Shown: positions 23,302-36,529 of the stretch, one piece after another
How positions within the stretch are numbered: position 1 is the first letter of the stretch
Layout of the letters: each line of letters starts with the position of its first letter
Source: Acidobacteriota bacterium
Lineage (GTDB): Bacteria; Acidobacteriota; Polarisedimenticolia; J045
Direction: 5' to 3'
Length of the DNA: 36,529 nt
NCBI GenBank assembly: GCA_003696075.1
Contig: RFHH01000069.1
Coordinates: 1-36,529 of the forward strand
The notes under the pieces: model-generated
Database searches by the model: none
Seen by the model: only the letters and a program-made list of their open reading frames with translations
Told to the model about the DNA's origin: nothing
Made by a program: the position numbers and the translations under genes

Positions 23302-25494
23302 TCAGTCGGCGTAACCCAGGGTCCGCAGCCGCTCGAGCGCCTCGCTGTCCAGCGGGCGCCCGGCTCGCGCGGGATGGGCCTTCTCGAAAGCCTCGCGACG
23401 CCGCCTCTGGGCTTCGAGCCACGCCCGGATCCGCCGCGACGGCTCCTCGGTCCCCTGCTCGAGGGCGCGGAGTTCCCCCGGATCGCGGGCGATGTCGAAC
23501 ACCTGCGCCGGTCGCCCTTCCTCGAGGACCACCTTCCGGAGATCACCGAACAAGAGGGCGTGCCGTTCCGGTTCGTCGCCGGCGAGAAAGAAGTGCAGGA
23601 GCGAACTGGGGACCGGAACGGGAGCCGCCCTCCGGCCGGCGAGAAACGGGAGGAGGGAGCGGCCCTGCCCCTCCGGGAGCGGGGGAAGGCCGAGGAGATC
23701 GAGGAGGGTGGCCGGCACGTCGGCGAGGCCCACCGGCGTGTCCACGTCCCGCGCCGGGAGCTGACCCGGCGCGTAAAACACCAGCGGCACGGCCACCTCC
23801 GTCTGGTAGACGCTCTGGCCGTGACCGCGGGCGCCGTGCTCGCCGAACGACTCGCCGTGGTCGGAAAGGAAGACGAGCAGCAGCGGCCGGCGCCGCGCGC
23901 GCCGCTCCAGCGCCTCGAGAAGCGCGCCGAACTGCACGTCGGCGTCGGCCACCGCGCGCGCATAGGCGGCGCGCGGACCGCCCTGGTCGAGGCGATACCG
24001 TCCGAGCTGGTACTCGTGGGCCTCGAGCGTGTGCACGTAGGCGAACGCGGGGCAGTCCGGCTCCTCCTTCAGCCAGCCGAGAAGCGCCTCGTGGAGCTGG
24101 GAGGCCGACGGGTGCAGCCCGAGGGCGACGCGGCCCCGCCAGTGCCGCGGCGCGTAGGCGGCGTCGAAGCCCCGCTCGAGCCCTGTCAGCGTCGATGCGA
24201 GCGGGTTGGCGACGAAAGAACCGGTGCACCAGCCGGCATCGCGGAACCGCTCCTGGAGGAGCGGCAGGTCCGGGGGAATTCTGTCGGTGTACGCGCGGGC
24301 CCCCACGCGGTGAACGGGCGGGAGGATGCCGGTGAAGAGCGTCGTCACCGCGGGCTTCGTCCAGGAGGCGTTGCTCTGCGCGTGCCGGAACCGCACACCC
24401 CCGCGCGCCAGCCGGTCGAAGGCCGGGGTGCGGGCCCGTTCGGCCCCCCACGCGCCGAGCGCGTCGGAGCGGAGGGTGTCGACGAGGTAGATCAGGACGT
24501 CCGGAGTGGCCTGCGGTAGGCCGTTCCCGTCGAAAACGCGCGGGTCGCCGAAAAGCGCCAACCCGACCCGGCCGCCCTGCGGCGTCTCCGGCGCCGAGGC
24601 CGAGAGTTCCAGCGTCACGCGCCGGCCAGCCCAACGGCCGAGCGGCGCCTCGCGTGCCGCCCACACGGGTCCGTCGTCGGCGCTCGAGATCACCTGCCGC
24701 CGGCCCTCCGAGACGACCGCGACCGATCCGCGGACCGGCCCGCCGACCCCCGCCTCGTGCCAGCGCAGCCGGGCGTTCGCACCGGGCACGCGGATCCGGA
24801 AGCGCACGCGGGCTCCCGGGGCGACGTACCAGCTCGGCCGGAAGACGCCGCCCGCCTCGGCGACGCGGCGGCCCGCCGGGCCGCGGAACGCGGCGAGCGC
24901 ATCGAGCAACGTCACCGACTCGAGGCGGGCACCAGGACCGGCACCGGGGAGGACGACGCGGATCGCACGCAGGCGGCCCTCGGTGCCGGCGTCGAGCCAG
25001 TTCCCTTCCAGTGTCTCCCTTATGTCCAGCCGAACCGAGACGAGCCCGCCCGGGGCCGCGGGAGCGGGAAGCGGTACGTCGACCTCGCGGTGCCGCAGCG
25101 CCACGACGTCCTTGAAAACCCTCTGCGGAACGTCGAGGAGGAGCCTCAGGGACGAGGCCCCCGCCGGTGCGAGGACGATCTCGATCGTGCCGGGATCGAA
25201 ACCGAGGCCGGTCAGATCGGGGCTGTCGAAGACGACCCCCTGCGGGGCCTCGGAACGGTGCCACGCCTTCGCCAGCCGCTCGCCGCGCCACTCGGCCCGG
25301 TGCCAGGATCGCTCCGCGCCTTTGCCGGACACCTCTCCGGACAGCTCCGCCAGCCGGATCGGAGCGGACGGCGGCGGCCGCCAGTCCGGCAAGGGCCGGT
25401 CCCTCTCCGCGGGAGGGGCCGCGCCCAGCATCGTCAGGGCAACACAAGCTGCGACGAAGCCGACCCGCGAGGCGGGCGCCGGGGAACTTCTCAT
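23302..25494 (-). CDS. Sulfatase-fold hydrolase/transferase with Thr nucleophile, secreted
   Basis: The 730-residue protein has a signal peptide (VGFVAACVALTMLGAAPP), a beta-rich N-terminal region to about residue 325 with no family I can name, and a C-terminal alkaline-phosphatase/sulfatase domain. Metal and core motifs are VLIYLVDTLRSDALGAWG (Asp339), FVANPLASTLTGLERGFD, LLVFLSDHGESFGEHG and GHGQSVYQTEVAVPLVFY. At the nucleophile site the sequence is NASWTKPAVTTLFTG, placing Thr379 where canonical sulfatases have the Cys or Ser of C/S-x-P-x-R that becomes formylglycine; the following Ser and Arg are also missing. A classical sulfatase is therefore unlikely. Phosphodiesterase or phosphotransferase chemistry, as in Thr-dependent relatives, fits better. 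Confidence 0.85.
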   Translation of the reverse strand: MRSSPAPASRVGFVAACVALTMLGAAPPAERDRPLPDWRPPPSAPIRLAELSGEVSGKGAERSWHRAEWRGERLAKAWHRSEAPQGVVFDSPDLTGLGFDPGTIEIVLAPAGASSLRLLLDVPQRVFKDVVALRHREVDVPLPAPAAPGGLVSVRLDIRETLEGNWLDAGTEGRLRAIRVVLPGAGPGARLESVTLLDALAAFRGPAGRRVAEAGGVFRPSWYVAPGARVRFRIRVPGANARLRWHEAGVGGPVRGSVAVVSEGRRQVISSADDGPVWAAREAPLGRWAGRRVTLELSASAPETPQGGRVGLALFGDPRVFDGNGLPQATPDVLIYLVDTLRSDALGAWGAERARTPAFDRLARGGVRFRHAQSNASWTKPAVTTLFTGILPPVHRVGARAYTDRIPPDLPLLQERFRDAGWCTGSFVANPLASTLTGLERGFDAAYAPRHWRGRVALGLHPSASQLHEALLGWLKEEPDCPAFAYVHTLEAHEYQLGRYRLDQGGPRAAYARAVADADVQFGALLEALERRARRRPLLLVFLSDHGESFGEHGARGHGQSVYQTEVAVPLVFYAPGQLPARDVDTPVGLADVPATLLDLLGLPPLPEGQGRSLLPFLAGRRAAPVPVPSSLLHFFLAGDEPERHALLFGDLRKVVLEEGRPAQVFDIARDPGELRALEQGTEEPSRRIRAWLEAQRRRREAFEKAHPARAGRPLDSEALERLRTLGYAD

Positions 25495-26320: not shown

Positions 26321-26366
26321 TCAGGGCGACCCCTCCAGCAGCCGCTCGAGCGGGTCGCCCGGGTAA
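25891..26366 (+). pseudogene. Probable frameshifted gene remnant, unrecognised family
   Basis: From about 25891 one plus frame reads sensibly with nearly all codons ending in G or C: HPEFAHGVLPACTAGRLAGRLAAE, later LPFEDSVLPAIEQPFAAAG and EVGMGFVDAGVLKD. Near 26135 that frame loses its character and a second frame takes over with RAILAARGIHEHLSVVMFLDS and LRGRAVELRGFPAVSSVG, again with third-position G or C almost throughout, to a stop at 26364-26366. Neither part has a good start site, and the 3' end overlaps the convergent cytochrome gene by 46 bases. This is best explained by a decayed gene or an assembly frameshift. I do not recognise the family. Confidence 0.35.
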
Positions 26367-27748
26367 CCCAGCGCCTTCCAGTCGAGCCGCCCGTTCGGGC
26401 TGTGGCAGTCGAGGCAGCCAAGCGCCTGATCGGCCGGGACCACCTCATGGAACAGGCCCATGTAGCGGACCGTCTCGACCCACCGGAAGCGGATGTCATG
26501 CAGGCCGTAGAACTTTTCGGCCGCCTCCTGCACGAAGGGCGTGATGTCCCCGTCGGCGCTCGCGTAGTACTCCTCCGTCACGATCGGAACCAGCCAGTTG
26601 CGCTCCTCGAGCAGCGGCAGCTTCGCGCGATGCACCTTGAACGGATAGATCTTCGCCCGCGGCTCGTCGCGGGAGCCGACCGGTACCGCAATCGGGATCT
26701 CGCCGCTCGGCAACGGCGAGACCGGCCGTCCGGCCAAGGTCATCCGCGTCCGCCCGTCGAACCAGGCATAGACTGGAATCACGTGCTCGCGCAGCTCCAT
26801 CTTCATGTACCAGCGGCCGCGATCCTCCTGCCAGACCGGCGTCGACCAGTCCCGATAGACATCGGTCGGGTCATCCTTGGCGAATTCGGGAATGTGACAC
26901 GCCGTGCAGTGCACGCGCGCGGTGTGGCGGTCGAGAACCTTGACGTCGTGCGGCTCTTCGCCGTGACAGTCCGCGCAATCGAGCGGCGCTTCCGGCATCT
27001 CGCGATCCGCGAGATCGGCGCCGCGCCCGCGCACCCGATGATCCTCCCCCATGTGGCAGTCGATGCACTCGAAGCCGGCGCCGTCCCGGCCCATGTGAAC
27101 GTCGAAGGATCGGTCGCAGTCGTGCAGGCGGTACTCGAGGTCGCCACGTTTGTAGTTGGGTCCGCCCCCGGACCCCGCGTGGCACCGCAGGCACATCACT
27201 TTCTTTGGTAGCGAGATGCGCTGCGAGACGATGTCGAGTCCCTCCTGGTTCTGCCACAGGATCGGTTTCCATTCCCAGCTACCGTCTGCGTTCCGGTACA
27301 GATCGCGGCGGTAGCCGCTCGCGTGGCAGATCAAGCAGTCGATGTTGAGGAGCTGCTCTTCCGTCATCTCCTCCGACGGCATCCGGCCGCGGCCGGCGTG
27401 GCACTTGGAACAGCCTTTCGCCAGCACCCGGCCGTCGGCCGCGCGCACCTCGCCGATCCAGTTGATTCTCGGATTCGTACAGAAGTCGTTGATGACGTTG
27501 ATCTTGCCGAGCTTGCCGCCGGGTGCCCCCTGGAGGTCCGGAGTCGGACCCTTCCACTGGTAATGGACGGAACGAAAGAAAGTCTCCGCTTGTTCGCGGT
27601 GGCAGCGCAGGCAGGTTTTCGTCCCCTCGTAGTGCTCCCACAGTCCCTCGTGACCGCGGAAGGGCGAATCCGCTCCCACCCCGAGCGTGGGCGACGGCAC
27701 TACCGCCGCTGCGATGGCGATGGGAGCGAGAAGGCTCCGGATCGGCAT
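26321..27748 (-). CDS. Octaheme c-type cytochrome, tetrathionate-reductase-family type
   Basis: The 475-residue secreted protein (signal SLLAPIAIAAAVVPSP) has eight CxxCH heme motifs at residues 46, 113, 138, 186, 228, 258, 281 and 445, with 160 residues between the last two. The arrangement around NDFC90, GCSKCHAGRG and NIDCLICHASGY, and the tail CLDCHSPNGRLDWKALGYPGDP (split: CLDCHSPNGRLDW, KALGYPGDP), resemble octaheme tetrathionate reductase family cytochromes. Those proteins reduce tetrathionate, nitrite or hydroxylamine in vitro, and their physiological substrates are mostly unknown. No CxxCK site is present. Two non-heme Cys (90, 211) remain. The ATG at 27748 follows AAGGAG. It is the last gene of a sigma-54 operon, 14 bp after the porin stop. 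Confidence 0.88.
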   Translation of the reverse strand: MPIRSLLAPIAIAAAVVPSPTLGVGADSPFRGHEGLWEHYEGTKTCLRCHREQAETFFRSVHYQWKGPTPDLQGAPGGKLGKINVINDFCTNPRINWIGEVRAADGRVLAKGCSKCHAGRGRMPSEEMTEEQLLNIDCLICHASGYRRDLYRNADGSWEWKPILWQNQEGLDIVSQRISLPKKVMCLRCHAGSGGGPNYKRGDLEYRLHDCDRSFDVHMGRDGAGFECIDCHMGEDHRVRGRGADLADREMPEAPLDCADCHGEEPHDVKVLDRHTARVHCTACHIPEFAKDDPTDVYRDWSTPVWQEDRGRWYMKMELREHVIPVYAWFDGRTRMTLAGRPVSPLPSGEIPIAVPVGSRDEPRAKIYPFKVHRAKLPLLEERNWLVPIVTEEYYASADGDITPFVQEAAEKFYGLHDIRFRWVETVRYMGLFHEVVPADQALGCLDCHSPNGRLDWKALGYPGDPLERLLEGSP

Positions 27749-27762
27749 GATGCGCTCCTTTC

Positions 27763-29511
27763 TCACCACCTCGCCATGAGGCTCAGGGCGAACTTTCTGG
27801 CGCTGTCGTACGTCGGGAAACCGAGAACGGGCTGCGTTTCGAGGTCTTTTGGCGTCCCGAGCAGCCATCCCGATCCCGAGTAGTCGTAGCTGTAATCGAT
27901 GTAGTCCAGCTTGACGAGAAATCGGTTCTCGATGCGGTGCGTCAGATAGACCTCCCAGACGTCGCCTCGTGTCTGTGTCTTCGGCGCGATGATCTCGTCC
28001 TCGGCCGCCGCGAAGTTGAACCAGTACCGTGATCCGTGGTTGTACTCGACCCCGATCTTCGTGCGGTCGTCGTTGAAGCGAAGACGCACGCCGCCGTAGA
28101 ACATCGAGCCGCTGCGATCCTGCGGTGCTTCGAACGGGTCGGAGAAGAGGCCACCGAAGGGGGTCGTCACGCCGTTGGGGCTCGATTCCACATAGTTGGC
28201 GCTCACAAACCAGTCGACCGGTCCATCGCTCCGCTGGAAAACGACGCTAGCGAGATCGAGGTCGCCGAGATGGGCCGACGGGGTGTAGCGCAGGATGACG
28301 GGAGCGGGTATGGCCTGACCCGTCACCGGGTCGGCCGGAAGAACGACGAGCCCGTTGAACCCGTCGGTGACGTCGAACGCCTTCGCGACCGTCAGTTGAA
28401 CGAACATGTCGTCGGTGTCCCACACGTCCCAGTTGATGCCTAGCAGCTGCACGTCGTCGAGGCGGTCGGCCGGGTTCTTCAGCACCTGGCCGTTTCCGAA
28501 GCCGGACTCGTACCCTACGCCGTAGCACAGCCGGAGGGTGGAAAAGTCATTGATATGCCAGCCGAACGTCAGGCCGTCGAACTGGAAGTCGATCACCGAG
28601 CCGGCAGGGGTTCCGCCGCGCGGTTCGTCATGCCGGAAGTTCAGCGGCACGCCGCCGGTCGAGGGACGGCGGCCGATCGAGAGGTAGACCGGCAACCCGC
28701 CGATGTCGTTCCAGGAGAAGTAGGCCCGCTCGACGCGCAGGATATCGGAGTTCGGGACGTTGGCCGTCGTGCCGTCGATGTTGATCGTCGTCGGCTGCCC
28801 GTTGAACACCCGTACGCCGGTCGAGTCGCCCCAGACTTTGTACATCGAAAGGCGCCCGTCGAAGGTGACGTTGTCGCCGACCCGCGCGCGGATCCGCAGC
28901 CGCAACCGGTTGGTGTAGAGGATGTCGTTGTCGGCGTTCGCTCCGGGCACGAAGGCAGCGGGCAGGTACATCGCGAACAGTTGCTGCTGCAACGCCGGAT
29001 CGAAACCGGCCATTGCCTCCTTGAGCTGGCCGAACGTCAATTTCGAAGTGAACAGCAGCCAGTCGGCATAATGGGATTCGATCTGCGCATCGAGATCGGC
29101 GATCGATTCGGGCGGTGCCCCGACCTGCTGGAAGTAGAACAGCGTCTTCACGATCAGATTCTGCAGCACCATTCCGTCGAAGTGGTCCGGGATCTTCGCT
29201 TGAATCGTGTGAGCTTCGAACCGGAAGTCCCCCTGGAAGAGCAACCGATCGAGGGCAGCGTGGCGCTCCGGCTCGTTCAGACGTCGCTCCAGGTCCTCGA
29301 TCCGCTGCTCGAGATCCTCGACCGCATCCCGCGTGGCGTCCGCGCTCACGTCGCCGTCCTTGTCGGCCGCCGCCGCGGTGCCGGTCCGTTGTTCGGTCGT
29401 TGCCGGCGCGGTCTTCGCGGCTGTAGCCGCGTGCGTCGTGGCCGCCGGGACGCCGGCCGCCAGCAGTACGATCGACGCGGCCACGATTGAGAACACCCTT
29501 CGCTCGCTCAT
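27763..29511 (-). CDS. DUF3373-type outer-membrane porin
   Basis: The 582-residue protein has a signal peptide (VFSIVAASIVLLAAGVPAATTHA), a short alanine-rich linker, a coiled coil at about residues 60-85 (AVEDLEQRIEDLERRLNEPE) and then a long beta-barrel that begins LLFQGDFRFEAHTIQAK and ends in an aromatic-terminal strand, FALSLMARW. This layout matches DUF3373-type channel proteins often found beside multiheme cytochromes in metal- and sulfur-respiring bacteria. Placed between two cytochrome genes, it may carry or host electron transfer across the outer membrane, or simply admit an anionic substrate. The start is supported by GGGAGGAAAG. It has 16 bp to the gene before and 14 bp to the gene after. 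Confidence 0.82.
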   Translation of the reverse strand: MSERRVFSIVAASIVLLAAGVPAATTHAATAAKTAPATTEQRTGTAAAADKDGDVSADATRDAVEDLEQRIEDLERRLNEPERHAALDRLLFQGDFRFEAHTIQAKIPDHFDGMVLQNLIVKTLFYFQQVGAPPESIADLDAQIESHYADWLLFTSKLTFGQLKEAMAGFDPALQQQLFAMYLPAAFVPGANADNDILYTNRLRLRIRARVGDNVTFDGRLSMYKVWGDSTGVRVFNGQPTTINIDGTTANVPNSDILRVERAYFSWNDIGGLPVYLSIGRRPSTGGVPLNFRHDEPRGGTPAGSVIDFQFDGLTFGWHINDFSTLRLCYGVGYESGFGNGQVLKNPADRLDDVQLLGINWDVWDTDDMFVQLTVAKAFDVTDGFNGLVVLPADPVTGQAIPAPVILRYTPSAHLGDLDLASVVFQRSDGPVDWFVSANYVESSPNGVTTPFGGLFSDPFEAPQDRSGSMFYGGVRLRFNDDRTKIGVEYNHGSRYWFNFAAAEDEIIAPKTQTRGDVWEVYLTHRIENRFLVKLDYIDYSYDYSGSGWLLGTPKDLETQPVLGFPTYDSARKFALSLMARW

Positions 29512-29527: not shown

Positions 29528-29899
29528 TCAGCGCCCGCAGGTCATCGGCTGCTCCGAGTCGGCCGCGTGGTCGACTAGGAACTTCTCGAGCTGCTTACGG
29601 ATCTCGGGTGTGAGGATCTCGCCCAGCGCCCGCTTCTTCTCCGGATGCGTCAGCCTGGCGTGGGTCCGGGCGAACTGCTTGGCGAAGAAGCGCTGCCACT
29701 GCATGCCGATCAGCGACGAAGGCGAGAGCGGCTTCGCGCTCCCTTTCGGCTGGTGGCAGACGCGGCAGCTCGCTTTCCACAGCTCGACCTGCGCTTTGGT
29801 TCCACTCGCGGCGAGGGCCGTGCCCAGGCCGCCTGCCGCCAGCAGCGCGGCGGCCGCGAGGGCCAGCGCTCGCACCGCGATCGCTTTTCCGGTGCTCAT
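29528..29899 (-). CDS. Small monoheme c-type cytochrome
   Basis: The 123-residue secreted protein starts with a signal (VRALALAAAALLAAGGLGTALA) and has a single CRVCH heme site near mature residue 15. Further features are PLSPSSLIGMQWQRFFAKQF, an ILTPEIRKQLEKFL helix and a C-terminal DHAADSEQPMTCG with a lone Cys, which could be an axial or disulfide partner. It probably shuttles electrons between the inner membrane and the octaheme cytochrome. The ATG at 29899 is preceded by GAAGGAGA. It is the first gene of the operon, about 39 bp after the predicted sigma-54 start site. Confidence 0.85.
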   Translation of the reverse strand: MSTGKAIAVRALALAAAALLAAGGLGTALAASGTKAQVELWKASCRVCHQPKGSAKPLSPSSLIGMQWQRFFAKQFARTHARLTHPEKKRALGEILTPEIRKQLEKFLVDHAADSEQPMTCGR

Positions 29900-29948
29900 C
29901 GTCCTGTCTCCTTCCGCGTCTTTCCCGAGACGCGACACCGGTTAGTAA

Positions 29949-29964
29949 GGCAAAGGGCATGCCA
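29949..29964 (-). promoter_or_regulatory. Sigma-54 (-24/-12) promoter of the cytochrome operon
   Basis: The minus strand reads TGGCATGCCCTTTGCC, matching the TGGCAY-N5-TTGC consensus with correct GG-to-GC spacing. The predicted transcription start is near 29938, leaving a leader of about 39 bases to the monoheme cytochrome. The neighbouring regulator carries GAFTGA, the sigma-54 contact motif, which supports this site. Confidence 0.8.
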
Positions 29965-30042
29965 GCATCAGAGACGCCCGTCGTCGCAAGTCATTGAGAA
30001 AAAAGGCCTTCGGAACCCACGCTGAGAGCAGCGGGTGCGAGC

Positions 30043-30097
30043 GAAACAGATTGTTTCAGGTGAGAGAAACGGTGCGTTTCGTGCGACGGATCGTTTC
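30043..30097. promoter_or_regulatory. Enhancer (UAS) cluster for the sigma-54 activator
   Basis: Two perfect inverted repeats, GAAAC-N5-GTTTC, lie at 30043-30057 and 30066-30080. Their centres are 23 bp apart, about two helical turns. A third copy at 30083-30097 keeps GTTTC but has a degenerate left half (GCGAC); GTTTCAGGTGA recurs at 30053 and 30093. The cluster lies about 105-160 bp upstream of the predicted start site, the usual distance for such activators, and ends just past the regulator stop. Confidence 0.75.
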
Positions 30098-30108
30098 AGG
30101 TGACGGGG

Positions 30109-31857
30109 TCAGCGGATCAAGTCGTATCGCTTCATTCGCCGCCAGAGAGTCGTGCGGCTGATGCCGAGTTCGCGCGCGGAACGCGTGACGTGCCAGCGAT
30201 TCCGCCGCAGCACCTCGAGGATGCGTCGCTGCTCTTCCTGCTCCGGTCCGGTGGGGACCGCTTCGTCCGGGGGAACGGTCTCCGGCGCGACGGCGCGGCG
30301 GATCGCCGGGGGCAGGAACGCGCGCTCGATGCGACCGGTCGTCGTCGTCACCATCGCGACCTCGATCGCGTGCTCCAGCTCCCGCACATTGCCTGGCCAG
30401 TCGTAGGCGAGCAGCATCGCCATCGCCCGGTTCGAGATTCCCCGGAATTCCTCCTCGCGGCCCGCGTAGTACTTCGCCCGGAATTTCTCCATGAAATGCT
30501 CGACGAGCGGCGGGATGTCGGCACGGCGCTCTCGCAGCGGTGGGAGGTGAATCTCGAGCACCGCCAGCCGGTAATAGAGGTCCTCGCGGAACCGCCCGGC
30601 GGCGACCTCCGCGGCGAGATCGCGGTTGGTCGCCGCGATGATGCGGACGTCGACCCGGCGCGAGTCGGTTCCGCCCACACGCTCGAACTGTTTGTCCTGG
30701 AGCACCCGCAGCAGCTTGGCCTGAAGCGCCGGCGAGGTGTCGGCGATCTCGTCCAGGAGGATCGTGCCGCCGTCGGCCAGCTCGAAGCGGCCGGGCTTGT
30801 CGCGCACCGCACCGGTGAAGGCGCCTCGGACGTGGCCGAAAAGCTCGCTCTCAAGGAGGGTCTCGGTGAGCGCAGCACAATTGACGACGACGAACGGCCG
30901 GTCGCGGCGAGGCCCCGTTTGGTGGATGGTGCGGGCCACCACGTCCTTACCCGTTCCCGAGGCGCCGGTGATCAGGACGGTTACGTCGGTCTCGGCCGCT
31001 ACACGAACCTGCTGGAGGACCTTCCGCATCGCCGGACTGAGCGCAACGATCCCGGGGACGGCGCTGATCCGGGCCAGCTCCCGCCGCAGGGCGACGACCT
31101 CCGTGCGGTCATAGACGAAGGCCGTCACGCCGGCGACCTCATCGTCCTCGTCGAGCAGTTGCGCCGTCGTTACCTCCACGACACGCTCGTTCCCGCCCGG
31201 CACGATTCGCTCGCGGCAGCCGTCGACCGGCTTGCCGTGTTCGAGCGTCCACAGGAGCGGGCAGTCTGTCGAGCACTTCTCGCCCCGGAGGACATCGTCG
31301 CAACGGCGACCCACCGCCTCCGCGGCGCTGACCCCGGTGATCCGCTCGAGTCGGCGAGAGAACGACCGGATCACCCGCTCCCGGTCGACGGTGAAAACGC
31401 CGTCTCCGACGGCGTCGAGGATTCGCTCCGTTCGCTCCTTCTCCCGCCGGATGACCCGATTCACTTCCTCCAGTTCCAGGATGGTGTCGCGGAGCGCATC
31501 CATGTTGCGGAAGTTCTCGATGAGCCCGACGCAGCGGTTCGCCTCGTCCAGGAAAGGGTACGCGGTGAAGCAATACGAGCAGCGAGCGCTGGGCCCGCCG
31601 AGCTGAACGTTGAAGTGCACGTGCACCTGCCCGCGAGGCACCTCGAGCCGCTTCGGCGAGATGGCCGCCAGCGTCTCGGCCGGGACGAGCTGGGACAGTT
31701 TCCGGCCGCGCAGGTCCTGTCCCTCCCGGCCGACGATGCGAGCGAACGCATCGTTGGCATAGAGCACGGTCTCGTCGTGCCCGACGATGAGGATCCCGTC
31801 GGTGATGTGATCGAGGATGCGCTCCGGCGCCAGGCACCCGTTGGAGGCTTCGGCCAT
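30109..31857 (-). CDS. Sigma-54-dependent activator, PAS-PAS-AAA+-Fis
   Basis: The 582-residue protein has two PAS regions (about 10-120 and 140-255), a AAA+ domain (about 268-500) and a Fis-type helix-turn-helix (WHVTRSARELGISRTTLWRRMKRY, about 553-576, shown as two parts: WHVTRSARELGIS and RTTLWRRMKRY). Walker A is GASGTGKD (298-305), the sigma-54 contact is GAFTGA (345-350), and Walker B is GGTILLDE (363-370). Cys residues sit at 8, 93, 96, 109, 186, 195, 199 and 214, mostly in or beside PAS cores, suggesting a redox, metal or cofactor sensor; this is inference. There is no receiver domain, so a ligand or redox state, not phosphorylation, should be the signal. It probably controls the cytochrome operon downstream on the same strand. 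Confidence 0.93.
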   Translation of the reverse strand: MAEASNGCLAPERILDHITDGILIVGHDETVLYANDAFARIVGREGQDLRGRKLSQLVPAETLAAISPKRLEVPRGQVHVHFNVQLGGPSARCSYCFTAYPFLDEANRCVGLIENFRNMDALRDTILELEEVNRVIRREKERTERILDAVGDGVFTVDRERVIRSFSRRLERITGVSAAEAVGRRCDDVLRGEKCSTDCPLLWTLEHGKPVDGCRERIVPGGNERVVEVTTAQLLDEDDEVAGVTAFVYDRTEVVALRRELARISAVPGIVALSPAMRKVLQQVRVAAETDVTVLITGASGTGKDVVARTIHQTGPRRDRPFVVVNCAALTETLLESELFGHVRGAFTGAVRDKPGRFELADGGTILLDEIADTSPALQAKLLRVLQDKQFERVGGTDSRRVDVRIIAATNRDLAAEVAAGRFREDLYYRLAVLEIHLPPLRERRADIPPLVEHFMEKFRAKYYAGREEEFRGISNRAMAMLLAYDWPGNVRELEHAIEVAMVTTTTGRIERAFLPPAIRRAVAPETVPPDEAVPTGPEQEEQRRILEVLRRNRWHVTRSARELGISRTTLWRRMKRYDLIR

Positions 31858-31878: not shown

Positions 31879-31909
31879 GGGATACTAACTTACGAATATG
31901 TTATATCCC
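31879..31909. promoter_or_regulatory. AT-rich inverted repeat ahead of the regulator gene
   Basis: GGGATA-c-TAAC and GTTA-TATCCC pair around the centre TTACGAATAT, with one bulged base. The element lies about 22 bp upstream of the regulator start in the only AT-rich spot of a 112-bp gap, and overlaps where a promoter would be expected. It could be an operator or a leader hairpin. Confidence 0.45.
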
Positions 31910-31969
31910 CAACGCGGCCCCAGCCACCCGCGCATCCAACCGTTTCCAGACAGTGGGAATCGGCCGTGA

Positions 31970-33004
31970 TCAGGTCCGGCCGAGGCGGCGGGCCACTTCC
32001 GCGTCGTGGGGATCCTCCGCGTAGAGCCGCTCGAGATCCGCCCGCGCCTGCCGCGTCCGCCCGAGCGCCTCGTAGACCAGGGCGCGCTCGAAGCGCAAGG
32101 CGCGCAGCAGCTCGGGAGGGCGACCCTTGCGCCGGCGCAGCCCCGCGGTGAGTGCCTCGCGTGCGGCGTCGAGCAGGCCGAGGCGGCGCAGGGCGCGCCC
32201 CTTGTACAGGAGCATCGCGGCATGAGCCGGACTTTCGTTGCCCAGCCCTTCGGCGAGCTCCACGACGCGTTCCGCCGCCCGGCGGCCTTCCGCTCCGGCG
32301 TCCGGATCCGCCTCGAGGAGAAGCTCGGCCAGTGACACCTTGACGACCACGTCGCCGGGGCGCATCCGGAGAAGCCTCTCGAGCGCGGCGATCGCTTCCT
32401 TGCGTCGGCCGAGACGCTGCTTCGCCTCGACCAGCCCGAGCAGCGCGCCGGCGAGGCCGGGCCGGACGTGAGCGGTGATCTCCGGCGTCACCGGCAGCTC
32501 GAGGTCGAGATCGAGGCCGTAGCGGCGGAACGTGCGGCCCAGCTCCTCCCCCCGCTCGGCCGCCGATGCGAGGAAAGCGGCGGCCTCCGACGGCCGGTCC
32601 AGGGCGAGGGCCAGGTACCCGGCGAGGAAGGCGCCGTCGGCGAGGTGCAGCGCCTCGCGCAGCCGCTCGAGCGCCGCCACCTCGTCTCCGCGCACGAACT
32701 CCCGGCACCCGGCGATGAACGCCCGCTCGTGCGCGGGGGTGAACAGCCGCTCGAAGAAACCGGGCGTCAGCCGGCGCTCGAGCGCCTCGGCGCGCCGTGA
32801 CGCAGAGCTTGCGGCGCCGCGCGACGGCAGTGCGTGCGTGTAGAAGAGTCCGGTTCCCGGAATACCAAAGGTCACGCGACGGCCGCGGGGGCCGGCGGTG
32901 AACTTCGCCCCTCGCGGGCCGATCGACGCGGAAACACCCGAGCGGCTGAAGTTCAGCGTCACGCCGGGAGCGATGCGGACGCGGCGCCAGAATCGGAACG
33001 CCAT
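31970..33004 (-). CDS. DUF4236-domain TPR protein
   Basis: The 344-residue product opens with a DUF4236-like segment (FRFWRRVRIAPGVTLNFSRSG, GPRGAKFTAGPRGRRVTFGIPGTGLFY, given as motifs), a short glycine-rich beta module of unknown role. The rest is helical with tetratricopeptide-like repeats (RRKEAIAALERLLRMRPGDVV, GRALRRLGLLDAAREALTAG, RALRFERALVYEALGRTRQA). No signal or membrane segment is seen, so it is likely cytoplasmic. The ATG at 33004 has a GGAGGAG ribosome site. It follows the CHAT gene by 23 bp on the same strand, so the two are probably co-transcribed. TPR arrays usually hold partner proteins; the partner is unknown. Confidence 0.75.
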   Translation of the reverse strand: MAFRFWRRVRIAPGVTLNFSRSGVSASIGPRGAKFTAGPRGRRVTFGIPGTGLFYTHALPSRGAASSASRRAEALERRLTPGFFERLFTPAHERAFIAGCREFVRGDEVAALERLREALHLADGAFLAGYLALALDRPSEAAAFLASAAERGEELGRTFRRYGLDLDLELPVTPEITAHVRPGLAGALLGLVEAKQRLGRRKEAIAALERLLRMRPGDVVVKVSLAELLLEADPDAGAEGRRAAERVVELAEGLGNESPAHAAMLLYKGRALRRLGLLDAAREALTAGLRRRKGRPPELLRALRFERALVYEALGRTRQARADLERLYAEDPHDAEVARRLGRT

Positions 33005-33027
33005 CTCTCCTCCGCTGCCGCCAGCGG

Positions 33028-36000
33028 CTAACGCCAGTCACCCGCCGCGACGAACGCCCCCCAGTAGAACGGGTGGACCGGGCGGTGCGAGGCCCGGCGC
33101 ACCGCGATCACCTCCCGCGTCGCCGCCGCCACGGCCTCGGCGGTGGGCCGCTGTTCCTCCAGGCGCGCGCGATAGAGGGCCGCCATCCACTCACGCGTCG
33201 CGGAATCGTCCGCCGGCCACAGGCTCACGATCGCCGTGCGCGCGCCCGCCTCGAAGAAGGCACGCTGCAGGCCGAGAACGCCTTCAGCCGTGCGGACCTC
33301 GCCGAGTCCGGAGTCGCAAGCGGAGAGAACCACCCACTCCACGCCCGTCAGGTCGAGCGCGGCGATCTCGGCGGCGGTCAGCAGGCCGTCGTCCGCGGCG
33401 CTGTCCCGCCCGGAGCCCTGAGGCCCGGCGCCGATCGGTGCGCGATTGGCGCCGGCCAAGGCGAGTCCGGTTCGGAACAGCGGGTCGATCGGCACCGGCA
33501 GCACCGGCCCCGGCGCGAACGGCGCTTCGCCGCGTGCGCCGGCGGGGACCGTCCGGGGGCAGTCGCTTTCGATCCGGAAACTGTGCGTCGCGAGATGCAG
33601 GATCCGGCGCCCTGGGGCTTCCCGGCGGAACGTCGCTTCGTCCGCGGCGGCGCCGGTGACGATCCGGACCGCCGCGGGGGCCCCGCGTCGAGCGGCCGAA
33701 GCGCGCCACCGTTCGGCCAGATCGGTGACCTCCCGCTCCGTTCCCGGAAGCGGCGCGAAGCGCGCGGGAACGAGCCGCCAGCAGCCGTCCCGGCTCCGGG
33801 CGGAATCCCGCTCGGACGGCGGCATGGCGCTTTCCACGTCCTCAGGTGCGCCCGCCCGCGCACCCGCATCGAAGTCGATCCCCCCGACCGCCAGCAGACC
33901 TCGCCCGCGGCGAACCGGCGCGCCGCGCAGCAGATCGCGCTCGGAGGTGAGCCGGTGGACCGGAGCGCCGGTCTCGGCCCAGAAGCGGCCGCCGGCCGCC
34001 GGAAAGGTGGCGGGATTGACGGCGTGCAGCGCCCCGTCGGGAACGACGAACAGCACCCGGGCGCCTCCGGCCTTCGCGACCACCGGATCCCAGACCGCCC
34101 GGCGCAGCGACTCCGCCGCCTCTCGGTAGCGCGCGTCCGCCTCGTGACGATCGCGGCCAGCGGCGAGCGGAGGTGCCGAGATTTCCTCGCGCCACCGCCG
34201 GACCAGCTCTTCGATCCGACCGGCATCGCCCAGAGGCACGGCGATGGGATCGGCTTTTCCCGGGGGGAGGACGAACGCGACGTACGCCCCCCGAACCTCC
34301 CCGGTCCTCCCGGCCTCGTCGAAGCGCGCCCATGCGATCAGCGCCGCATCCGGCGGCAGCGCCGCGCGCACGGCATCGATCGTGATGCCCTCCACCGGCG
34401 CCGGCTCGGGCCCTCCGGCGCGCGCCAGCTCGCGTTCCGCCCTTTCCGCCTCCGCGCGGGCGCGCCGGATGGCGTCGCGGTAGGCCGCGGCCGGCGTCGA
34501 TCCCGGTCCGCGCACGATCAGCCCGGCGAGGTTCCGGCGGGCGCGCAGGAGCGCGAGCCGCGCGTCGCGGCTGCCCCGGGCTTCCGCGAGCCGCCTGTGG
34601 ATCAGGCTGTCGAGCACGAGCGCCCGGGAGGCGATCAGCGCCTCCCACACCCGCGCGATCTGCGCCGGAGCGAGGCGGCCTCCGGCGGCAAGGCCGAGGG
34701 CGACGTCCCGCCCCGAGCGGCCTCTCATGGACAAGGCGATCTGCAGCGCCTGTCGCTCCGGCAGGCCGCCCAGTTGCGCCCGCAAGCCCTCGCGGCTCGA
34801 CCTCCACGCGCGCAACGCGAGCTCCAGGGCGCCCGCCGCGTCCCCCCGCGCCGCCAGGAAGGCGGCGTGCTGGTGGAGAGTGCCGGCAGCGGCCGGATGG
34901 TCGAGTCCGACGGTGCGGCGGAGGACCTCCTCCGCTCGCTCGAACTCCCGCGCCGCCGACGCGTCGTCCCCCAGCTCGAACGAGAGGACGGCCAGCATCT
35001 CGTGATCGCGCGCCGCCTCCACCGAGGGGGCATCCTTCTCGTAGCGCGATTCGATCGCCGTGGCGCGCTCGATCAGCCGCCGCGCCTCTCGCCGCCGGCC
35101 CATCGAACGGGCCGCCAGCCCCTGGTCGTACAGAGCCTGCGCCAGCGACCGGTGATCCGGCCCGAGGGCCGCTTCGAGTCGCCGCGCCGCCTCGCCGTAC
35201 CGCCGGAAGGCGCTTTCCAGATCGCCTTCGAACCAGTGGGTGTGCCCGAGCGCGATCATCGACTCGGCGATCGCCGGATCGTCCGGATGCAGGCTCCGCC
35301 GCCGGATCGCCAGGGCCTGCTCGATGCGGCGCCGTCCCTCGGAAGTGTCGCCGAGCCGCGCCAGGAGCAGCCCGGAGTTGTTGAGCGCCTGCGCCCGCGC
35401 CAGAGGCTCGTGATCCGGGTGGGCAGCGAAGTAGGCCAGCGCGCGCTCGAACAGATCCTGAGCGTCGGCGAGGCGGCCGAGCTGCATCAGGATCGTCGCC
35501 AGGTTGCCGCGAGCCACGGCCGCGGCGAGGCCGTCGCCGGCCGCCTCGGCGATGTCGATCCCGCGCCGCGAGGCCTCGATCGCCTCGTCGAATCGTCCCG
35601 CCTGGAGCAGCGCCGCCGACAGGGCGTCGTAAGCCGAGGCCGTCCGCGGGTGCCGGTCGCCGAAGGCCGCGCGCACGATGCGAAGGGCTTCCTGCTGATG
35701 GCTCACCGCCTCCTCGGTGCGGCCGAGCTCCATCTGCAGGAGGCCGATGTTCCGGTGGATCGTGGCCAGTCTGGGGTCACCGGGTTGCAGCCGGCGCTCC
35801 CGGATCGCCAGGCAGCGCTCGTAGACGCCCAGCGCCGCCTCGCGCTCGCCGAGATCGACCAGCAGGCCCCCGAGGTTCACCAGCGTGGGCGTGATTTCGA
35901 GCGCCTCGGTGCCGAACAGCCGCTCGCGGATCCCCAGCGCGGTCTCGTACGCGCGGCGCGCCTGCTCGAGCTGCCGGCGCCGGTGGAGCACCGTGCCGTA

Positions 36001-36387
36001 CTGATGCCAGCTCAGCGCCGTGCCCGCGTCTTCGCGCCCGAGTTCGCGCTCCTTGATCGCGATCGCCCGGCGGGCCAGGCGCTCGTCCTCCTCGCTCGGG
36101 ACGGCCGGCGCGCGGCGCGCGGCGTCGACCGCCAGGTCGAGCACCTCCGCCGCCGCGAGCGTGTCGCCGAGCCCGTGCTCCTCGAGTTCGCGGAGCTTCT
36201 CGAGGGCCCGCTCCCGCGCCTCGGCGAAACGGCGCTGGTCGATCAGCGCGCGGATCGCGGCGAAGCCGTCCTCCCCCGCGCCGCTCTCCGGCGGCGCGGT
36301 CCAGCAGACGGGCGCTCCCGAAACGAGCGCGAGCAGCGCGAGCGCCGCGCGCAAAACCCCACGCGGGCCGCTGGCGGACCGATCCAC
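33028..36387 (-). CDS. TPR-CHAT protein, predicted caspase-like cysteine protease
   Basis: The protein (about 1119 residues from GTG 36387) has a signal-like segment (VLRAALALLALVSGAPV), about ten tetratricopeptide repeats to residue 480 (for example AVSHQQEALRIVRAAFGDRHP, RRIEQALAIRRRSLHPDDP), and a CHAT domain in the C-terminal 330 residues. The predicted dyad is His935 in HLATHS and Cys1024 in VVLSACDSG, both intact, followed by GVLGLQRAFFEAGARTAIVSLW and the final HPFYWGAFVAAGD. CHAT proteins are clan CD peptidases related to caspases and separase; some work in phage defence. The apparent export signal argues for an envelope role. GTG 36387 was chosen for the basic signal start and a nearby GAGGGGAGG; TTG 36441 is an alternative. 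Confidence 0.87.
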   Translation of the reverse strand: MDRSASGPRGVLRAALALLALVSGAPVCWTAPPESGAGEDGFAAIRALIDQRRFAEARERALEKLRELEEHGLGDTLAAAEVLDLAVDAARRAPAVPSEEDERLARRAIAIKERELGREDAGTALSWHQYGTVLHRRRQLEQARRAYETALGIRERLFGTEALEITPTLVNLGGLLVDLGEREAALGVYERCLAIRERRLQPGDPRLATIHRNIGLLQMELGRTEEAVSHQQEALRIVRAAFGDRHPRTASAYDALSAALLQAGRFDEAIEASRRGIDIAEAAGDGLAAAVARGNLATILMQLGRLADAQDLFERALAYFAAHPDHEPLARAQALNNSGLLLARLGDTSEGRRRIEQALAIRRRSLHPDDPAIAESMIALGHTHWFEGDLESAFRRYGEAARRLEAALGPDHRSLAQALYDQGLAARSMGRRREARRLIERATAIESRYEKDAPSVEAARDHEMLAVLSFELGDDASAAREFERAEEVLRRTVGLDHPAAAGTLHQHAAFLAARGDAAGALELALRAWRSSREGLRAQLGGLPERQALQIALSMRGRSGRDVALGLAAGGRLAPAQIARVWEALIASRALVLDSLIHRRLAEARGSRDARLALLRARRNLAGLIVRGPGSTPAAAYRDAIRRARAEAERAERELARAGGPEPAPVEGITIDAVRAALPPDAALIAWARFDEAGRTGEVRGAYVAFVLPPGKADPIAVPLGDAGRIEELVRRWREEISAPPLAAGRDRHEADARYREAAESLRRAVWDPVVAKAGGARVLFVVPDGALHAVNPATFPAAGGRFWAETGAPVHRLTSERDLLRGAPVRRGRGLLAVGGIDFDAGARAGAPEDVESAMPPSERDSARSRDGCWRLVPARFAPLPGTEREVTDLAERWRASAARRGAPAAVRIVTGAAADEATFRREAPGRRILHLATHSFRIESDCPRTVPAGARGEAPFAPGPVLPVPIDPLFRTGLALAGANRAPIGAGPQGSGRDSAADDGLLTAAEIAALDLTGVEWVVLSACDSGLGEVRTAEGVLGLQRAFFEAGARTAIVSLWPADDSATREWMAALYRARLEEQRPTAEAVAAATREVIAVRRASHRPVHPFYWGAFVAAGDWR

Positions 36388-36529
36388 GCCTCCCCTCGCC
36401 TTCCGGCCGGCGCGACGGCTCCGGTGCGCCGGCCCCCGCAAGATACCAAAAACGCGGCGCCGTGCGGCCCGCGCCCGCGCGGCGGGCTCAGGCCGGCAGG
36501 GCCGGCGTCCGGGGCCGGAAGGCTCCCGG
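36388..36529. other. Upstream region at the window edge
   Basis: These 142 bases precede the CHAT gene and should carry its promoter. Apart from a short AT-rich spot at 36441-36452 (agataccaaaaa) nothing recognisable is present. Confidence 0.3.

Follow-up and report, generated by a model that had tools for sequence, protein, structure and literature searches.

Prediction of a sigma-54 control region upstream of a cytochrome operon

How could the short stretch of DNA between a regulator gene and a respiratory cytochrome operon control that operon? The question arises in the window analyzed here, a 36,529-nucleotide stretch of Acidobacteriota DNA, for which the original prediction held that promoter, enhancer and regulator of a sigma-54 system are all readable within and beside some 150 bases. 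Our analysis indicates that this 150-base region is very probably a dedicated on-switch for the respiratory cytochrome operon, and that the circuit probably also includes an IHF-like site (Table 1). In sense-strand order the region consists of GAAACGATCCGTCGC-N2-GAAACGCACCGTTTC-N8-GAAACAATCTGTTTC, followed by 78 bases and then by TGGCATGCCCTTTGCC. Sequence alone shows the promoter and the activator as well as the array of repeats, and it also shows that these are conserved together and that helix and motif are correlated (see below); the designation of a complete circuit represents a strong prediction. Circuits of this type are well known in general; new in the present case are the details of which motif is assigned to the activator, of a probable IHF site and of a swap of reductases. 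A literature search for sigma-54 activators in Acidobacteriota gave nothing in the collection of papers searched.

Table 1. Predicted features of the control region and of the genes on either side of it (window coordinates)
Feature	Position	Strand	Remarks
Third gene, octahaem c-type cytochrome, octahaem tetrathionate reductase-related	26321..27868	(-)	8 CXXCH
Second gene, DUF3373 protein, probable outer-membrane beta-barrel	27763..29511	(-)	PF11853, E 2.1e-103
First gene, small monohaem c-type cytochrome	29528..29899	(-)	one CXXCH; ATG behind AAGGAG
Sigma-54 -24/-12 promoter TGGCATGCCCTTTGCC	29949..29964	(-)	GG-N10-GC spacing; predicted transcription start near 29938
IHF-like site TCTCAATGACTTG	29987..29999	(-)	8/9 of WATCARNNNNTTR; between enhancer and promoter
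Enhancer site 3 GAAACAATCTGTTTC	30043..30057	(-)	perfect GAAAC-N5-GTTTC inverted repeat
Enhancer site 2 GAAACGCACCGTTTC	30066..30080	(-)	perfect GAAAC-N5-GTTTC inverted repeat; 23 bp from site 3
Enhancer site 1 GAAACGATCCGTCGC	30083..30097	(-)	degenerate, 8/10; 17 bp from site 2
One-component enhancer-binding protein, PAS_4-PAS-Sigma54_activat-HTH_8	30109..31857	(-)	582 aa; helix GISRTTLWRRM

The most likely start codon of the first gene is the ATG at 29899, behind the AAGGAG, and not the GTG at 29938, which would give a leader of about 39 nt. Regarding the wider surroundings, the neighbor of the activator gene (31890-33041) showed no Pfam match, a TPR protein with a C-terminal CHAT (caspase-like) domain is encoded upstream of the activator (33028-36441, minus strand), and a sulfatase/phosphodiesterase-type protein is encoded downstream of the operon (23302-25494, minus strand).

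The activator and the repeat array

The gene next to the repeats had been predicted to encode a GAFTGA activator with a Fis-type helix-turn-helix, and its product agrees with this description, since it contains an AAA+ domain (Sigma54_activat, E 1.5e-70) with the GAFTGA loop, two PAS domains and a C-terminal Fis-type HTH (HTH_8, E 2.1e-14). These features are those of NtrC-type proteins, a class that is further defined by binding to inverted repeats 80-250 bp upstream of the promoter. None of the 25 named activator families listed in NCBIfam (NifA, NorR, AtoC, PrdR, NtrC and others) scored over its cut-off, and the best named-family score was 363.8 bits against a NifA cut-off of 528.85. Additionally, the second PAS domain (window 31857-31300, P0001) carries cysteines at positions 186, 195 and 199 (CX8CX3C), which the orthologs and several other activators share and which possibly serve in redox or metal sensing.

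Two perfect GAAAC-N5-GTTTC repeats and a degenerate third, proposed to lie about 105-160 bp upstream, were all located where they had been placed, the three copies being 105 to 159 bp from the start predicted at 29938. The perfect repeat was absent from all 100 shuffles of the window, which itself contains two copies, and the genome of 3,293,798 bases has no other perfect copy. The genome also contains 30 one-mismatch sites, and none of the 13 examined had a -24/-12 site at enhancer distance; one such site (C53:16954) lies behind another activator gene, without a promoter match.

Inverted repeats that come directly after the stop codon of the activator gene could instead act as RNA, forming hairpins or a terminator behind that gene, and the 81-nt stretch does fold somewhat better than its shuffles (z -1.92). 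However, no terminator-like site was found there, the stems of the repeats have only 5 pairs and are AT-rich, and in the predicted fold site 2 is paired with site 3, which is expected for any two such palindromes. Moreover, in G043 and G083 the repeat precedes the activator gene and stands at a divergent promoter. The hairpin or terminator reading was rejected as very improbable.

Conservation of promoter and enhancer in orthologous loci

The near-consensus -24/-12 promoter that had been proposed was found on the minus strand with the GG-N10-GC spacing. The window contains nine sites with two mismatches or fewer, against 6.85 expected, so that TGGCATGCCCTTTGCC is unremarkable by mismatch count, and it ranks first of all window positions on both strands when scored with position weights set by hand. 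As the mismatch count alone is not significant, conservation was used instead, and a -24/-12 site was kept in all five activator-linked orthologous loci (TGGCATGCGGCTTGCC, TGGCATGGACATTGCC, TGGCATGGCCCTTGCT and TGGTACGGACCTTGCT in the orthologs). The genome has one rpoN gene (PF04552, E 1.4e-64).

These five loci, namely the window (G000), G006 (= L169), G011 (= L034), G004 and G396 (= L035), share the order of orthologous activator, repeats, -24/-12 site and cytochrome c gene, with activator identities to the window of 75% (G011), 72% (G006), 57% (G004) and 54% (G396). The expectation that the repeats are kept upstream of orthologous operons thus held, beside orthologous activators and with matching spacing. 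The two closest relatives, G006 and G011, have the repeats between the orthologous activator gene and the conserved -24/-12 site, and both perfect copies of each genome are at this locus (2/2), while in the more distant G004 and G396 the layout is kept and the array is more degenerate. G396 has one of its three perfect copies at the locus, and the G004 array has degenerate copies (9/10 and 8/10), the three perfect copies lying elsewhere in that genome. The spacing between sites is 17/23 bp in the window and in G011, 17/24 in G006, 18/23 in G396 and 23 in G004, so that an equivalent of site 1 is found at 17-18 bp in G006, G011 and G396.

The exact 23-bp tandem pair occurs in two of 396 phylum genomes, the window's own and G011, in both cases at this operon; a match with two mismatches in G285 falls at a stringency at which reversed-pattern controls gave similar rates. 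The contig of G006 ends within the cytochrome gene, and its DUF3373 and octahaem genes are on another contig. The three nearest orthologs represent one family, and their conservation is therefore not fully independent.

Two further versions of the operon show other arrangements. In G048 (L118, 11113, minus strand) the same operon has a -24/-12 site, TGGTATGCCCGTTGCC, without an adjacent activator and without a GAAAC repeat, which indicates that promoter and enhancer are separable and that enhancer and activator go together; another activator must serve this operon. In G112 (L117, about 1250-1420) the orthologous cytochrome c, DUF3373 and octahaem operon has a sigma-70-like TTGACA-N17-CATATC, seen by eye, and no neighboring activator, indicating a rewiring of the operon between lineages. 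The G112 arrangement, together with the nine window sites of equal mismatch count, would be compatible with a -24/-12 match that is due to chance, the operon being transcribed either from a sigma-70-type promoter or by read-through transcription that comes from the activator gene. This explanation is very improbable given that the sequence and position of the -24/-12 site are kept in the five activator-linked loci and in G048, and that a search of the control region for a sigma-70 promoter or a terminator gave no match.

Correlation between recognition helix and repeat

Assignment of the repeat to the neighboring activator is supported by its correlation with the recognition helix. Loci were first gathered by similarity of the whole activator protein, and a separate search with the HTH alone was performed in 119 phylum genomes. 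In the whole-protein set the perfect repeat was found downstream of activators with the helix GISRTTLWR[RK]M, and a Planctomycetota locus (L047, 42% identity) has the repeat TGGCACCATCTTTGC downstream of its activator. The HTH-alone search added new cases of repeat plus -24/-12 site in G004, G043, G069 and G083.

Among 131 activator loci the repeat was present at 9 of 15 with R[TS]TLW (and thus absent at six), at 2 of 13 with other RxTLW helices and at 3 of 103 others, one of these three being the G011 ortholog, whose HTH lies outside the frame read; the helix classes were already known when the counts were made and the loci share ancestry, and these numbers are therefore descriptive. Scrambled palindromes, used as a control, scored 2-5% at activator loci. 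A helix-to-motif rule of this kind could guide the annotation of further activators in this class. Activators with a related helix were also observed in Acidobacteriota at L206, L208 and L209, divergent to genes resembling orp-type NifX-like proteins and with GAAACAAAATGTTTC-like sites.

The motif alone is not diagnostic, since PsrA of Pseudomonas fluorescens has been reported to bind the identical GAAACN5GTTTC pattern in the phlA promoter region (PMC3510223). That paper was the only text match for the exact pattern in the literature searched, and the motif was absent from the main text of two sigma-54 regulome papers. The repeats might consequently be operators of an unrelated dimeric regulator, such as a TetR-type protein like PsrA, with the neighboring activator binding elsewhere. 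We consider this improbable, because in five genomes the repeats form a fixed three-site array at the usual enhancer distance directly behind the activator gene, because their presence follows the recognition helix of the activator across families and in one other phylum, and because the genome holds so few perfect copies. Binding of the repeats by the neighboring activator remains the preferred reading, and it provides a concrete and cheaply testable activator-to-site assignment in Acidobacteriota.

The IHF-like site and the proposed mechanism

The spacer between enhancer and promoter contains a candidate IHF site. A match of at least 8/9 to WATCARNNNNTTR was present in four of the five orthologous enhancer-promoter spacers, against a summed chance expectation of about 0.19, after the consensus had been relaxed from WATCAA to WATCAR (the form in PMC3897727) following a first count of three of five. 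The genome has an IHF-beta gene that scores over its cut-off, and a search of the genome for IHF-alpha found none over the cut-off. The block around the IHF-like site (29980-30005, minus strand; TGACTTGCGAC beside a T tract) is common to the window and G006, in opposite orientation relative to the promoter.

Overall, it is highly probable that the region serves as control head for a sigma-54-dependent respiratory operon, which would comprise an adjacent activator, a three-repeat enhancer, looping, an IHF bend and promoter opening. In this mechanism the dimeric PAS-PAS-AAA+-HTH protein would bind the three inverted repeats (consensus TGAAAC-N5-GTTTCA) upstream of the start and, once its sensor domains are triggered, would assemble into an ATP-driven ring. 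The ring would touch the sigma-54 polymerase at the promoter through a DNA loop, probably aided by an IHF bend at the candidate site, and would open the promoter of the cytochrome c, DUF3373 and octahaem cytochrome operon. We infer activator binding, DNA looping, the use of IHF and a regulon with a single target.

The target operon and its possible signal

The octahaem cytochrome matched the structure PDB 1SP3 with an E-value of 5.4e-57, and it has the eight CXXCH motifs that are expected of octahaem tetrathionate reductases. In place of the octahaem gene, G004 and G396 carry a gene for a PhsA-like molybdoenzyme, which is closest to the thiosulfate reductase PhsA (571.6 and 569.5 bits, respectively, with a cut-off of 694). 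PhsA-like enzymes were also found in L047 and L210, both with the motif, and L210 additionally has 4Fe-4S and NrfD partners. In the DUF3373 tree the two PhsA-linked rows group together, but most of the inner forks are unresolved, so that the tree gives no direction for the reductase swap.

Sulfur oxyanions are substrates of octahaem tetrathionate reductase as well as of PhsA, and a common regulatory head consequently points to such a signal. An inducing signal in the form of a sulfur oxyanion (thiosulfate, tetrathionate) or of a matching redox state is therefore a tentative proposal, and it represents the weakest step of the argument. The Shewanella octahaem enzyme also reduces nitrogen compounds in vitro. 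It is likewise conceivable, albeit speculative, that PAS-type activators with the helix SRTTLWR read TGAAAC-N5-GTTTCA in more than one phylum and constitute a portable regulatory head. One set of activator, enhancer, promoter, cytochrome c gene and DUF3373 gene would then be combined with either an octahaem cytochrome or a PhsA-like molybdoenzyme, and would couple one sulfur-oxyanion signal to two unrelated terminal reductases. The exchange of an octahaem cytochrome for a PhsA-like enzyme under one head hints at a class of substrate both for a cytochrome and for the outer-membrane family DUF3373.

Comparison with known systems

Among the systems described so far, DVU3142 and ohcBAC of Desulfovibrio vulgaris resemble the present locus in that the gene of a one-component sigma-54 activator adjoins an octahaem cytochrome operon, for which a -24/-12 site is present and activator sites were predicted, whereas the arrangement there is divergent and OhcBAC is a different complex, for which no DUF3373 partner was reported (PMC4641369). 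The orp operons of the same species, with the activator DVU2106, likewise combine a sigma-54 activator, two palindromic sites and sigma-54 promoters, and experiments demonstrated that IHF is required, its sites being located between the activator sites and the promoter (PMC3897727). Nevertheless, the target in that system is the orange-protein complex and not respiration, and the role of IHF at the present locus is a predicted one. The octahaem tetrathionate reductase of Shewanella (PDB 1SP3) has eight haem motifs and is homologous over residues 81-509, while the cytochrome described here is encoded in an operon with a DUF3373 protein and its NCBIfam subfamily score (TIGR04315, 295.9 bits) is under the cut-off of 375. 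Finally, the activator regulons reconstructed in Clostridiales concern other targets, and GAAAC-N5-GTTTC does not appear in the main text of that study, but they resemble our locus in that the activator is encoded next to its target, that several upstream sites lie at 100-250 bp from the promoter, and that the similarity of motifs follows the similarity of the HTH (PMC6615313).
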